NCBI GenBank assembly: GCA_015064885.1
Contig: SVRJ01000008.1
Coordinates: forward strand, 1 to 64,000
Length of the DNA stretch: 64,000 nucleotides
DNA from: Oscillospiraceae bacterium
Lineage (GTDB): Bacteria > Bacillota > Clostridia > Oscillospirales > CAG-272
Reading direction: 5' to 3'
Positions within the stretch are counted from its first letter, which is position 1, and each line of letters begins with the position of its first letter. A program made the position numbers and the translations under genes. The notes beneath the pieces were generated by a model. It did no database searches and was not told the origin of the DNA. It was given only the letters and a program-made list of their open reading frames with translations. This document shows, piece after piece, positions 1 through 35,099 of the stretch.

Positions 1-97
1 ATTATATTCGCCTCCCAAACTCGCGAAGCGAATATCACTCGGCGTAAGCCGAATATCACTGCAAAGCAATAGAACTCGCCGCAGGCGAATATAACTG
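1..97. repeat. Mini-hairpin array 1 (cut by window edge)
   Basis: A run of short perfect stems with 3-4 nt loops, each stem different (CGCgaaGCG, CGGCgtaaGCCG, TGCaaaGCA, CGCCgcaGGCG). They are joined by a near-constant linker, AATATCACT or a close variant. At the left edge the linker reads in the opposite direction (ATATTCG), so linker orientation switches once inside the array. Stems are not conserved between units and there are no unique spacers of constant length, so this is not a CRISPR. Function unknown. Confidence 0.7.
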
Positions 98-129
98 AAA
101 AAAGCACTTGCTTGCGCAAGTGCTTTTTC
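98..129 (-). terminator. Intrinsic terminator hairpin beside array 1
   Basis: Stem AGCACTTGC/GCAAGTGCT with a 4 nt loop, flanked by A and T runs, so it can work on either strand. It follows the minus-strand gene that ends at 262, after a 130 bp conserved module. The same stem occurs beside arrays 2 and 3. Confidence 0.75.
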
Positions 130-259
130 TGTGACGTGTGTCCGATTTAGATGCACGCAGATTTTGCAGAGGGTACACTACCCCCTTGGCGATGATGGGA
201 GTTAAAAGTTTCCGCGTTCTACCGGGATTTTAACGCTATGCTTGTAACGAGTCCTATGT
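126..259 (-). repeat. Conserved 3' module, copy 1
   Basis: About 134 bp between the stop of the first gene and its terminator, closely matching the module at 1614-1752. Both share blocks such as CCGATTTAGATG, TTTTGCAGAGGGTA and GTCCTATGTAA, plus an internal inverted repeat (GTTAAAA/TTTTAAC). The end next to the terminator resembles the 3' end of the tRNA-Gln gene at 2942-3017 and may be a decayed tRNA copy. Confidence 0.7.
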
Positions 260-261
260 AA

Positions 262-1230
262 TCAGTCTTCGAAAATCACATCTTCAAAAGAACTATCTAA
301 TTCCTCGTATAAATCCGATAATATTTCAAATCCTTTAGCCGATTCATAACAAAACACCCATGAAAGTGTTTTTATATCGAATCGCTCAAGCATATAAGCA
401 AATATATTTTCTTTGGGAGAGAAAACAACAATTCGATAAGTATAGTGATCAAAATATTTTTTGGTAATTACGTTTGGATATTTATCAAGGGCGTCATTTT
501 TATGTTCAACCGCATTAGCCGATAATATCTGAAATTTAGTAATGTTAAGAGCTGTAAGCTTTTTTCCACATTTGCTTGCCAATAAAAATGCGATTATTAT
601 TGTGAATATTTCTGAAAAAGCAAATGCTAAAAAAACAACGTCATCTAACTTAGAAAAATCAGTCAAGTCTTTTCCTTCGGTCAAAAAAACACACCATCCA
701 ATATGAATAAATAGGAAAGCTCCAGCGATGTTTGTTGCTATTAAATATTTGATGAAGCTTTGCTTATTTTTTTGATGTTTGAACTTTGCTTCTTCAATAT
801 TGATTGTATTTGAAGGATTTGAAATGTGTGACAAAATATATTGGCATAAATCTTTAGCATTCACTAAATGATAAATCCAAATAACACTGTCATCAATATA
901 CAATTTTAAATGCTTTCCTTGATTTTCAGCGTTTTCAATATTGTTTAGTTCTGTGTAGAGTTCTTCGCCCCACCCAAATTGCGCTTCGATTTTACCATCT
1001 TCAATTTTCAAAAAAGCCTTTCGGTTAAATTGAAAAACAAATATTGAAAGGAAACCAAACAACAAACCGAAAACGGCAAAAGTAAAACAGAAAACAGAAG
1101 ATGCCGCATGGTTTAATTGAATTTCCTCTATACCCCACAAGGAAAAACGAATAGATATAAAAGATCCCGAAAGGATAAAAAACAGACAAAATATATATTT
1201 TCTAAGGGATTGTTTAAATTCTCCGTTCAT
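262..1230 (-). CDS. Membrane protein of unknown function, cassette gene 1
   Basis: 322 aa, not recognised as a named family. Two hydrophobic segments near the N-terminus (about residues 12-30 and 43-67) and two more in the middle (about 160-185 and 198-218) suggest four membrane passes. The soluble part between the pairs (about 70-135) has the alternating strand pattern and closing helix of bacterial PH-like domains; that is inference. The ATG at 1230 follows GAGGGG. The gene is clearly more AT-rich than the chromosomal genes to its right. It lies in a repeated framework shared with the next gene: promoter module upstream, conserved module and terminator downstream. This suggests acquisition as a unit. 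Confidence 0.75.
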   Translation of the reverse strand: MNGEFKQSLRKYIFCLFFILSGSFISIRFSLWGIEEIQLNHAASSVFCFTFAVFGLLFGFLSIFVFQFNRKAFLKIEDGKIEAQFGWGEELYTELNNIENAENQGKHLKLYIDDSVIWIYHLVNAKDLCQYILSHISNPSNTINIEEAKFKHQKNKQSFIKYLIATNIAGAFLFIHIGWCVFLTEGKDLTDFSKLDDVVFLAFAFSEIFTIIIAFLLASKCGKKLTALNITKFQILSANAVEHKNDALDKYPNVITKKYFDHYTYRIVVFSPKENIFAYMLERFDIKTLSWVFCYESAKGFEILSDLYEELDSSFEDVIFED

Positions 1231-1262
1231 GGTATGTCCCCTCTCTTGTTATATTTACCAAA

Positions 1263-1291
1263 ATTATAGCATAAATTTGTGAACATTTCAA
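1263..1291 (-). promoter_or_regulatory. Promoter of cassette gene 1
   Basis: Minus-strand -35 TTGAAA and -10 TATAAT with a 17 bp spacer, about 30 bp upstream of the ATG at 1230. The -35 lies inside the repeated upstream module. Confidence 0.7.
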
Positions 1292-1353
1292 CCGTATCGC
1301 GTAAATAGGCTCCCTGAGGAAGGCTTTCGTTAGTTCGAATCTGTCTACAGACC
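1277..1353 (-). repeat. Conserved upstream module, copy A
   Basis: 77 bp nearly identical to 2651-2727, with only a few mismatches. It contains the -35 region and a GTTCGAATC motif like a tRNA T-loop, followed by CTACAGACC. I could not fold a full tRNA from it. It sits between the gene promoter and hairpin array 2. Confidence 0.75.
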
Positions 1354-1390
1354 GAATATGCCCGAAAATCTTCGCAATCTCGTATCCTAA

Positions 1391-1586
1391 TCACGCCGAA
1401 GGCGTGTATGAAATCAAGGCGAAGCCTTGCATGGAATCCGCAACTTGTTGCGGTATGGAATCATCACGAAGTGATGTATGGAATCAATCCGAAGGAAGAT
1501 ACACGCTAAGGCGTGATGCCATACGCCTGCGGCGATTTCGTACACGACTGCGTCGTGATTACATACCAATCCTTCGGATTGGATAG
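1391..1586. repeat. Mini-hairpin array 2
   Basis: Eight short hairpins in a row, with stems of 4-7 bp and loops GAA, TT, TAA, TGC or TTC; examples are CACGCCgaaGGCGTG, CGCAACttGTTGCG and CACGACtgcGTCGTG. The first four linkers read TATGGAATC or TATGAAATC. The last three read as the reverse complement of that (GATGCCATAC, GATTTCGTAC, GATTACATAC). The array is therefore two half-arrays facing each other. It ends at a terminator hairpin. No coding potential was accepted here. Confidence 0.75.
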
Positions 1587-1587
1587 A

Positions 1588-1618
1588 AAAAATCACTTGC
1601 CGAGGCAAGTGCTTTTTT
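1588..1618 (-). terminator. Intrinsic terminator hairpin beside array 2
   Basis: Stem CACTTGCC/GGCAAGTG with A-run and T-run flanks, following the 3' module of cassette gene 2. Nearly identical to the hairpin that terminates tRNA-Gln. Confidence 0.7.
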
Positions 1619-1752
1619 CTGTGTTGTGTGGCCGATTTAGATGTACGCCGGTTTTGCAGAGGGTAGACTAACCCCCAGGCGTGTATGGGAGTTAAAAGGT
1701 TCCGCGGTCTACCGGACTTTTAACTCCATGCTTGTAAACAAGTCCTATGTAA
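1614..1752 (-). repeat. Conserved 3' module, copy 2
   Basis: Second copy of the module at 126-259. It includes an 11 bp inverted repeat, GGAGTTAAAAG/CTTTTAACTCC. Next to the terminator, the minus strand reads AAATCGGCCACACAACACAG. The true tRNA-Gln end reads AAATCCGGCCACCCCAGCCA, followed by the same terminator. Confidence 0.7.
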
Positions 1753-1754
1753 AA

Positions 1755-2606
1755 TTATTCAGCAAATAACAGTTTTAATTTTGCCTCCTGCTGCTCGTCA
1801 AATCCCAAGAAGTCGGAAACTTCACCGATGTTGTTTGCTCCCTTAATAGTAATTGAGTTGGGATTAAATAGATTTTTTACTTCCAGCATCTTATCCAAAC
1901 AATTATCCTTGGCGCCCGATACACGCCAATCAAAATCTCTGTTGGAGAAAGAAAAATCCTTTCCGTCCTTCATTTCAATAGTGATTTCATATTTCCAATA
2001 GTCTGCTGTTCTATATCCAGAAACGAATTGGGTTTTGATGGTCAAGTGAGCAAAATCATCTGTGGTATATGTATCACCTGTTAGATTTACCATGTTGATC
2101 TTTTCTATGCGATTGTCTTTGTATAGTGCATTTCGACCGAACAAACTGAAAGGAATTAAGCAAGCACACACAAACAAGCCTACGCACCACAACATAGTCA
2201 TTTGACGCACAAATTTCTTTTGCGAGGGCGTTTTCTTTAGATTGTATTTCTTTTGCCGGAAAAGTGGAATACAATCTTCTCTAAAAGGATATTCACCGTA
2301 TTTGTATTTTTTGCTGCCGAAAATTGGCTTTTTTGATTCCCACCCTGAAATAAAAAGCACGAGTGCACTGATTTCAAGAAACATCATAAACGGAAGTGCA
2401 AACAAAAAACTTGCATTGCTTCTGTATGCAACAGTTCCCGGCTTATTGAACGCGATCATATTTTGAATATCATCAAAACAAAAAGCCAACAACAACGCGC
2501 CTAAAAAGGAGAAAATGATACACAAAAAATAAATACTTTTATCAAGAAAAGTTAATGGTGGGCGCAAATGCCGCTTACTATCTTTTCGCTTTGTCTTTTT
2601 GCCCAT
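1755..2606 (-). CDS. Membrane protein of unknown function, cassette gene 2
   Basis: 283 aa from the ATG at 2606, chosen because AAAGGAG lies 7 nt upstream; a longer reading from 2660 has no ribosome-binding site. The N-terminus is strongly basic. Three hydrophobic segments follow (about residues 23-43, 65-90 and 138-160), then a soluble C-terminal half of about 120 residues. I do not recognise the family, and there is no clear similarity to cassette gene 1 beyond the shared layout of membrane segments plus soluble part. AT-rich and framed by the same modules as gene 1. Confidence 0.75.
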   Translation of the reverse strand: MGKKTKRKDSKRHLRPPLTFLDKSIYFLCIIFSFLGALLLAFCFDDIQNMIAFNKPGTVAYRSNASFLFALPFMMFLEISALVLFISGWESKKPIFGSKKYKYGEYPFREDCIPLFRQKKYNLKKTPSQKKFVRQMTMLWCVGLFVCACLIPFSLFGRNALYKDNRIEKINMVNLTGDTYTTDDFAHLTIKTQFVSGYRTADYWKYEITIEMKDGKDFSFSNRDFDWRVSGAKDNCLDKMLEVKNLFNPNSITIKGANNIGEVSDFLGFDEQQEAKLKLLFAE

Positions 2607-2636
2607 AGCAATCTCCTTTCGCATTTCGTTAATAAT

Positions 2637-2665
2637 ATTATACCACAATTTTGTAAACATTTCAA
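2637..2665 (-). promoter_or_regulatory. Promoter of cassette gene 2
   Basis: Minus-strand -35 TTGAAA, 17 bp spacer, -10 TATAAT preceded by TGTGG. Same architecture as the promoter of cassette gene 1. Confidence 0.7.
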
Positions 2666-2727
2666 CCGTATCGCGTAAATAGGCTCCCGGAGGAAGGCTT
2701 TCGTTAGTTCGAATCCGGCTACAGACC
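2651..2727 (-). repeat. Conserved upstream module, copy B
   Basis: 77 bp copy of 1277-1353, with the same GTTCGAATC motif followed by CTACAGACC. It separates the promoter of cassette gene 2 from hairpin array 3. Confidence 0.75.
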
Positions 2728-2736
2728 CAAAAAGGA

Positions 2737-2906
2737 ATGAAATCGTGCGTTGCACGATGAAATCCTCACTCCGCTCGGATGAAATCTTCGGCGTTCCGCC
2801 TCAGATGAAATTAAATCCGCCTCCATCTCCTGCCGAAAGGCAGATTTCATCGCGAAGCGATTTCATCCACCAAAGGTGGATTTCTTCCGCCAACGGCGGA
2901 TTTAGT
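2737..2906. repeat. Mini-hairpin array 3
   Basis: Short hairpins such as CGTGCgttGCACG, CGCgaaGCG, CCACCaaaGGTGG and CCGCCaacGGCGG are separated by a constant linker. In the left part the linker is GATGAAATC. In the right part it is GATTTCATC, its reverse complement. This is the same mid-array switch as in arrays 1 and 2. It lies directly before the tRNA-Gln terminator. Confidence 0.75.
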
Positions 2907-2908
2907 TG

Positions 2909-2940
2909 AAAAAAGCACTTGCCGAGGCAAGTGCTTTTTT
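2909..2940 (-). terminator. Terminator of tRNA-Gln
   Basis: Perfect stem GCACTTGCC/GGCAAGTGC with A and T runs, starting 1 nt after the CCA end of the tRNA on the minus strand. Confidence 0.85.
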
Positions 2941-2941
2941 C

Positions 2942-3017
2942 TGGCTGGGGTGGCCGGATTTGAACCGACGGGATGCCAGAGTCAAAGTCTGGTGCCTTAC
3001 CGCTTGGCTACACCCCA
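2942..3017 (-). tRNA. tRNA-Gln (anticodon TTG)
   Basis: 76 nt with CCA encoded. Acceptor stem TGGGGTG/CACCCCA, discriminator G. Anticodon stem CCAGA/TCTGG with loop CTTTGAC gives anticodon TTG. T-arm GTCGG-TTCAAAT-CCGGC. It has its own promoter and terminator. Its 3' end is echoed in the two conserved 3' modules to the left, which suggests it served as an insertion or duplication site. Confidence 0.95.
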
Positions 3018-34814: not shown

Positions 34815-35099
34815 TGCTTTAGCCTCCTGTTAGATTTTCGCTCGGCGGATCGGGTTTATCCGCAGCGTTAACCTCGGCAGTTCCTTGTACACGATTCCGT
34901 GCGTTTCGCGTTTTGTCCCTTTAAAAACCGACATTTGCCTGTCGCAACAATACAACCCTTTGCGATCACGCAAATCTCGGAAAGAGACGCGAAGCACACT
35001 TCATCGGACAAAACTCTGCCGTTCGCCCGATCGATCGGACATACTCCACGAAAATTACCTGCATAATGCAGCAACCTTTCGCTTCAACGCACATCAAGC
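34815..35099 (-). promoter_or_regulatory. Long 5' leader of the S10 operon
   Basis: About 285 nt between the predicted transcription start and rpsJ. Contains a 12 bp palindrome, CCGATCGATCGG, at 35027-35038, and a stem GCGGAT/ATCCGC just upstream of the rpsJ Shine-Dalgarno. No ORF with a convincing start was found. Leaders of this operon carry autoregulatory RNA in other bacteria; here the role is inferred from position and length only. Confidence 0.6.

Follow-up and report, generated by a model that had tools for sequence, protein, structure and literature searches.

The stretch analysed here, called the window, comprises the first 64,000 nucleotides (nt) of contig SVRJ01000008.1 of an Oscillospiraceae bacterium and carries in positions 1 to 2906 three arrays of tiny hairpins which are joined by short repeated linkers. 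These arrays are read as a conserved upstream module of small mobile cassettes anchored at the 3' (CCA) ends of transfer RNA (tRNA) and transfer-messenger RNA (tmRNA) genes, a reading to which a probability of roughly 60% is given. As judged from the sequences, the anatomy of the cassettes and their link to the S23 proteins (PF05635) are almost certainly as described below, and their mobility is very probable. A description of this cassette system was not found in the open-access literature searched, and may exist elsewhere.

At the beginning of the window a tRNA-Gln gene is followed by two complete cassettes in tandem and by the first part of a third. Read on the minus strand from right to left, the tRNA is followed by a hairpin termed hp0, array C, a promoter, cargo gene 1 and a structured module termed X; after this first X come a further hp0, array B, a promoter, cargo gene 2, another X, hp0 and one half of array A. 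The individual features are the following.

3061-3033, minus strand: promoter of tRNA-Gln, perfect, 12/12 matches.
2942..3017, minus strand: tRNA-Gln (TTG), from ARAGORN, 62 bits with the Rfam tRNA model; the cassette chain is anchored at its CCA 3' end.
2908..2941, minus strand: hp0, GAAAAAAGCACTTGCCTCGGCAAGTGCTTTTTTC, a terminator-like hairpin beginning at the tRNA CCA, with near-copies at 97-128 and 1588-1622.
2735..2906, minus strand: array C, ATGAAATC linker type, which is the type of the S23 clade 'MSTEFAIQILKLTENIKGHYSLSN'.
2839-2908: match of array C to Gut-1 (RF01706) over its right half as viewed on the plus strand, 51.9 bits (gathering score 50).
2812..2821, minus strand: a'', the middle copy GGCGGATTTA (as read on the minus strand), complementary to the array start at 2895-2904; closing stem.
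2637..2665, minus strand: promoter of cassette 1, TTGAAA-17-TATAAT, on the gene side of array C, 11/12 matches.
1755..2606, minus strand: cargo gene 1 (reading frame open from 2660), 283 amino acids, membrane-protein-like, no family match.
1651..1744, minus strand: module X, copy 1, structured 3' end of the cassette, 88.9 bits with covariance model R1, covariation.
1588..1622, minus strand: hp0 of cassette 2.
1389..1586, minus strand: array B, TATGGAAT linker type, below the Gut-1 gathering score.
1263..1291, minus strand: promoter of cassette 2, TTGAAA-17-TATAAT, 11/12 matches.
262..1230, minus strand: cargo gene 2, 322 amino acids, membrane-protein-like, no family match.
161..253, minus strand: module X, copy 2, structured 3' end of the cassette, 92.2 bits with covariance model R1.
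97..128, minus strand: hp0 of cassette 3.
1..97, minus strand: array A, AGTTATAT/AGTGATAT linker type, truncated where the contig ends so that only the half on the tRNA side is left.
27-97, minus strand: Gut-1 match of array A, 53.5 bits.

Both cargo genes of the window look like derivatives because they follow the promoter directly, without an S23 gene. Two of the arrays were also found elsewhere, array A before an S23 gene (L236), and array B behind tRNA-Arg (L005) and behind tRNA-Gln (L008). A first-pass annotation of this stretch had reported three mini-hairpin clusters with repeated linkers, and these are indeed present, with loops of 2-5 nt; what it had overlooked is that a tRNA gene and a terminator are present, that the arrays are parts of cassettes, and that Rfam already has an entry. 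The clusters exceed chance, as shuffled windows yielded 0.4 clusters of at least three hairpins each compared to the three observed within the window arrays. Upon dinucleotide shuffling the DNA folding z-scores were -4.6 for array A (1-97), -5.5 and -4.6 for the two halves of array B, and -4.6 and -2.0 for those of array C, for which RNA folding gave -4.9.

About 100 arrays from many genera have one fixed plan of 4 + 3 hairpins, a closing stem and eight linkers: a first linker and hairpin 1 are followed by three further linker-hairpin pairs, then, at mid-array, by the first arm's second copy, a'', and finally by four reverse-complement linkers with three hairpins. A full-length alignment holds for 32 full arrays from many genera. 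A few arrays have an extra hairpin (L071). The linkers had been said to flip in every array, and this is true for array B (TATGGAATC then GATT.CATA) and array C (GATGAAATC then GATTTCATC); array A is a single half in which every linker has the same orientation (AATATCAC / AATATAAC), and cannot display the flip because the window begins at contig base 1 (G000:C27:1-64000). The stems, which had been described as varying freely, are shared by position with arrays of other genera. As MAFFT misplaces some hairpins in the array alignment, pairing was assessed not by counting pairs but by comparing the complementarity within arrays with that between swapped ones. In 100 arrays with 28 different arms the complementarity of the first arm to its own a'' was 11.0 nt on average, compared to 6.8 nt for an a'' swapped in from another array, and the stems, since they co-vary, are therefore not free. 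Likewise, a variable number of units between relatives is contradicted by the fixed plan. Resemblance to clustered regularly interspaced short palindromic repeats (CRISPR) and to a terminator series had been denied before and is rejected here as well, for CRISPR because the linkers flip and the stems are self-complementary and common to several genomes. A 'fishbone' pairing of left with right linkers is not favoured either: in the mixed-linker array L127 the nested pairs beyond the first mostly mismatch, and pairing counts cannot decide on this model because linker changes between families are concerted. The first linkers of both halves of L127 match each other, which is consistent with the closing stem.

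Loop types differ between the two halves. In left halves C(TNC)G was found 155 times and C(GNA)G once, in right halves C(GNA)G 75 times and C(TNC)G once, and C(UUCG)G is nearly absent from the arrays. Mini-hairpins of the GCGAAGC type are unusually stable as DNA (PMC4686876). Because of these loop types, and because the arrays of the window lie between a terminator and the next promoter, the array probably acts at the DNA level.

Arrays A and C are Gut-1 RNA (RF01706) on the minus strand, just over the threshold. Gut-1 was described as a probable noncoding RNA from human gut metagenomes with no role assigned (Weinberg et al. 2010, PMC2864571). A search with strict filters of 59 related genomes found it in 38, with up to 50 copies each, so that the linkers are shared with arrays well beyond this contig. 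On balance Gut-1 is taken to be one half of a DNA module which goes together with tRNA ends, S23 and cargo genes.

Anchoring at tRNA genes was scored for 156 arrays in 1.29 Mb of DNA. Fifty-two of them follow an intact tRNA or tmRNA gene on the same strand at a distance of no more than 90 nt, 51 of these at 31-48 nt, where chance would give about 0.2% per array. Many other arrays follow decayed fragments of tRNA or tmRNA 3' ends, located before hp0; the internal copies of the tRNA end in the window are too decayed to call. The general order of a cassette is tRNA 3' end, hp0, array, promoter, usually S23, and one cargo gene. In L063/L027 a 410-bp unit including the 3' end of tRNA-Gly is duplicated in tandem, near letter for letter. 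Other elements are located differently. S23 elements with TGAATTG, GTGAAGT, GTGATAT or GCGATAT linkers (L213, L219, L220, L221, L234, L262) are located at a protein gene's 3' end. The C-terminus of that gene, HVESVV/HVETVV, read by eye, resembles rlmD/rumA, and the 3' end of this rlmD/rumA-like gene may be another target of insertion. A second class of arrays (L053, L056, L089, L137, L155, L161) lies away from tRNAs, and between the end of a protein gene and the array there is a long palindrome, nearly perfect and lacking a T-run (e.g. GCGTAGTGTCCTTAAGGACACTACGC).

A protein family linked to the arrays had been suggested as something to look for, and S23 (Pfam 1.3e-25, TIGR02436 3.5e-29) is the clear one enriched downstream on the same strand among the first 25 families listed in the Pfam tallies near arrays. 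S23 is present in 31 of the 38 Gut-1-positive and in 4 of the 21 Gut-1-negative genomes (Fisher p = 4e-6). From gut Clostridia genomes 80 S23 homologues were fetched, 74 of which had room upstream; in this clade from metagenome-assembled genomes an array was found upstream of 72 of the 74 genes, ending about 20-130 nt before the S23 start codon. This independent set also has an intact tRNA just upstream in 51 of the 74 loci, and in nearly all of these 51 hp0 lies at the CCA. More distant S23 clades have other linkers (ATGATGT, GTGAAGT, ATGATAT, AGTTATAT, TGAATTG, GCGATAT and more), as detected with a linker finder which also scores some neighbouring control reading frames. The linker type tracks the clade of the S23 protein rather than the genome (rho 0.40, p 0.0005 by permutation): the linker score of the nearest neighbour in another genome is 7.4 compared to 4.2 upon permutation, and pairs from the same genome but of different S23 clades score 3.6. 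Recognition of the linkers by a dimeric protein had been proposed, and the agreement of linker and clade lends indirect support to recognition, but S23, which has a relative with a solved structure (2rld), is a homopentamer of four-helix bundles without known function (PMC4990558) and not a dimer. That S23 reads the linkers has about an even chance.

The genome of the window has one S23 gene (L224, G000:C32:1-3000, near 415) with an ATGATGT-linker array upstream, a linker which differs from those of all three window arrays. Other S23 clades are located behind tRNA genes without a mini-hairpin array (L240, L248, L249, L257, L214) and have upstream one long inverted repeat, either CT-rich/AG-rich or with ATTATTC repeats. 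Matches on plasmids turned out to be distant S23 homologues. Phage carriage was also discarded: the two 'phage' records with S23, MT835590 and MT835815, are unverified faecal scaffolds, neither of them annotated, in both of which an array precedes S23 and in one a tRNA precedes the array. A search of IMG/VR for S23 gave one match. In an IMG/VR contig of unverified viral status (L264) an S23 gene is preceded by a tandem pair of full Gut-1 arrays.

Mobility is suggested by 326 pairs of loci in which a unit of about 600 bp, hp0-array-S23, follows different tRNAs with an identity of 80% or more (maximum 94%) and the flanks are mostly at background identity (0.75 on shuffled sequence for the aligner used, with one pair showing an artefactual 1.0). 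On the right the homology ends at the S23 stop codon. In 35 loci this stop codon and the ATG with which the following gene starts overlap (ATGA); the 35 cargoes concerned belong to 33 unrelated families, and 13 further ATGA overlaps were found in other S23 genes of relatives. The cargoes include acetyltransferases, DUF4279, WapI-like immunity proteins, kinases and a pyrophosphatase; a role in defence was considered and dropped, as few matches were obtained with PADLOC. Chains of cassettes as in the window are plain in L122 (tRNA-Arg, array-S23-DUF4279, array-S23-nucleotidyltransferase, array-cargo) and also in L062 and L106. The 92-nt module X at the 3' ends of cassettes occurs at 35 places in 14 of the 59 genomes, mostly from the window's own family, and consists of ATGG.GTTGCAC / GTGCAAC.CCAT and a GGGTA/TACCC hairpin, with four pairs in which both sides have changed in a compensatory manner. 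It had no match in Rfam.

How such cassettes would move can be proposed as follows. On an exposed strand one array half may fold into C(GNA)G mini-hairpins spaced by linkers; S23, encoded by the cassette itself or elsewhere in the genome, would read the linkers; and the resulting nucleoprotein complex could be used by a recombination step to insert or exchange cassettes at tRNA ends. Whether this amounts to a new class of gene capture, in which S23 proteins are structure- and linker-specific DNA-binding factors which work with a host enzyme in place of a dedicated recombinase, is rather doubtful at present, though worth considering.

Several observations weigh against this picture. Among 5290 open reading frames around the 156 arrays, neither a motif search nor phmmer detected a tyrosine recombinase. 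Three carriers with 15, 37 and 48 Gut-1 copies (G010, G030 and G058) have just one tyrosine recombinase each and lack reverse transcriptases, and G030 and G058 have no Y1 transposase either. With no recombinase by the arrays and carriers so poor in recombinases, the enzyme is missing from the picture; given the sparse recombinases of the latter three genomes, the candidates left are Xer or another host enzyme, homologous recombination, and arrival from other hosts. Neither a transposition nor an excision step was seen, and empty sites, sought in the genera of G034 and G014, which have too few congeners, were not found. The cassettes of the window encode no S23 gene, and an S23 partner for the TATGGAAT linker type was looked for and not found. 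Agreement of linker and clade alone is no proof of binding because array and S23 gene travel together. Finally, terminators leak, so that some transcription of the arrays is possible, and 35 of the right-half loops are GNRA, which suits RNA as well.

The search for other enzymes gave no constant partner. The window's genome has an Xer-like gene and, as a fragment, another integrase, both located on contigs other than that of the window. Y1 HUH transposases are absent from 20 of the 38 Gut-1-positive genomes, and reverse transcriptases from 28, the window's genome being without either. Transposases of the type associated with repetitive extragenic palindromes (RAYT), as well as reverse transcriptases, were therefore rejected as constant partners.

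Among the alternatives, action of the arrays as RNA survives best and is nevertheless unlikely. The arrays would then be a noncoding RNA or a read-through extension of the tRNA, and S23 would bind RNA as does its relative Avd. Avd works with a reverse transcriptase and a template RNA in diversity-generating retroelements. The classification of Gut-1 as a probable noncoding RNA by Rfam and by Weinberg et al. 2010, the strong RNA folding (z -4.9) and the occurrence of S23 in transcribed intervening sequences of 23S rRNA are in line with such a role, whereas the location of the window arrays after a terminator and before a promoter, the dominance of GNA triloops and of their complements in the other half with cUUCGg nearly absent, and the 28 Gut-1-positive genomes lacking a reverse transcriptase argue against it.

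Somewhat less likely still is that the array is an operator by which S23 autoregulates the adjacent cassette promoter, with movement by other means. Repeated oriented linkers resemble binding sites, the promoter lies in the roughly 20-130 nt between array end and S23 start, and the linker follows the S23 clade; an operator, however, could do with far less than folded stems, a closing stem that covaries and eight linkers in both orientations, and arrays are kept in cassettes without S23, as in the window. It is also improbable, and slightly more so, that the arrays are passive repeats resembling miniature inverted-repeat transposable elements which favour tRNA 3' ends, with chains and cargo exchange brought about by ordinary homologous recombination. 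Many contigs end inside arrays as they do with interspersed repeats, the 410-bp tandem duplication in L063 is near-exact, and no recombinase was found nearby. Against this, the near-invariant linkage to S23 (72/74), the fact that stems and linkers covary in about a dozen linker families, and the precise ATGA junctions with 33 cargo families point to a maintained function. Growth of the arrays from the centre by copying, advanced in the first-pass annotation and suggested by the linker flip in mid-array and the extra hairpin of a few arrays, can practically be dismissed in view of one 4 + 3 architecture in about 100 arrays, no graded lengths, and position-specific stems across genera.

The reading of the arrays as the upstream module of tRNA-anchored mobile cassettes would join three unexplained items, the Gut-1 'RNA' of 2010, the S23 proteins, and the spread of S23-coding intervening sequences; the last, their spread through 23S rRNA genes, would be accounted for by the gene-capture principle if it is true. 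Behind their tRNA genes, gut Clostridia would keep accessory genes for exchange in the manner of an integron, in 38 of the 59 related genera sampled. Elsewhere in the window an S10-Clostridia ribosomal protein leader (RF03136, 45.9 bits) at 35023-35096 on the minus strand is ordinary.

Several known systems resemble the cassettes in part. Integrons share tandem one-gene cassettes with varied cargo behind one anchor, structured DNA sites, and cargoes such as acetyltransferases, immunity proteins and proteins of unknown function. In contrast to integrons, no integron integrase was found, the anchor is a tRNA gene, the structured array lies at the 5' end of the cassette, and the cargo genes of the window each follow a promoter with 11/12 matches where integron cassettes are largely promoterless. 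Integron cassettes end in attC, a folded site with R'/R'' boxes and extrahelical bases; a candidate counterpart is module X, which is structured and covarying but limited to 14 of the 59 genomes. Repetitive extragenic palindromes (REP) and bacterial interspersed mosaic elements (BIME) with their RAYT transposases likewise have small palindromes and conserved flanks in opposed orientations; the arrays differ from them by their fixed seven-hairpin plan, the tRNA anchor and the lack of Y1 in 20 of the 38 carriers. Diversity-generating retroelements, the home of Avd, need a reverse transcriptase with template and variable repeats (TR/VR), and the window's genome has no reverse transcriptase. Tycheposons, integrative and conjugative elements, and prophages likewise insert where tRNA or tmRNA genes end (3'), with part of the tRNA end repeated, whereas the cassettes are about 1 kb in size with one or two genes and no integrase found nearby.

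Two further comparisons concern the components themselves. Gut-1 RNA has the same UGAAAU linkers and three hairpins, but the Rfam model spans 77 nt of about 170 with one linker type only, and Rfam files as a human-gut-only noncoding RNA without function what appears here as half of a larger array module. The intervening sequences of 23S rRNA (PF05635, TIGR02436; PMC4990558) encode the same protein family, are small elements in or at a gene for a structured RNA, and have an inverted structure beside the gene. They lie inside the 23S rRNA gene and are excised by RNase III, whereas the cassettes lie behind tRNA-Gln, other tRNA or tmRNA genes and have their own promoter, hairpin array and variable cargo gene.

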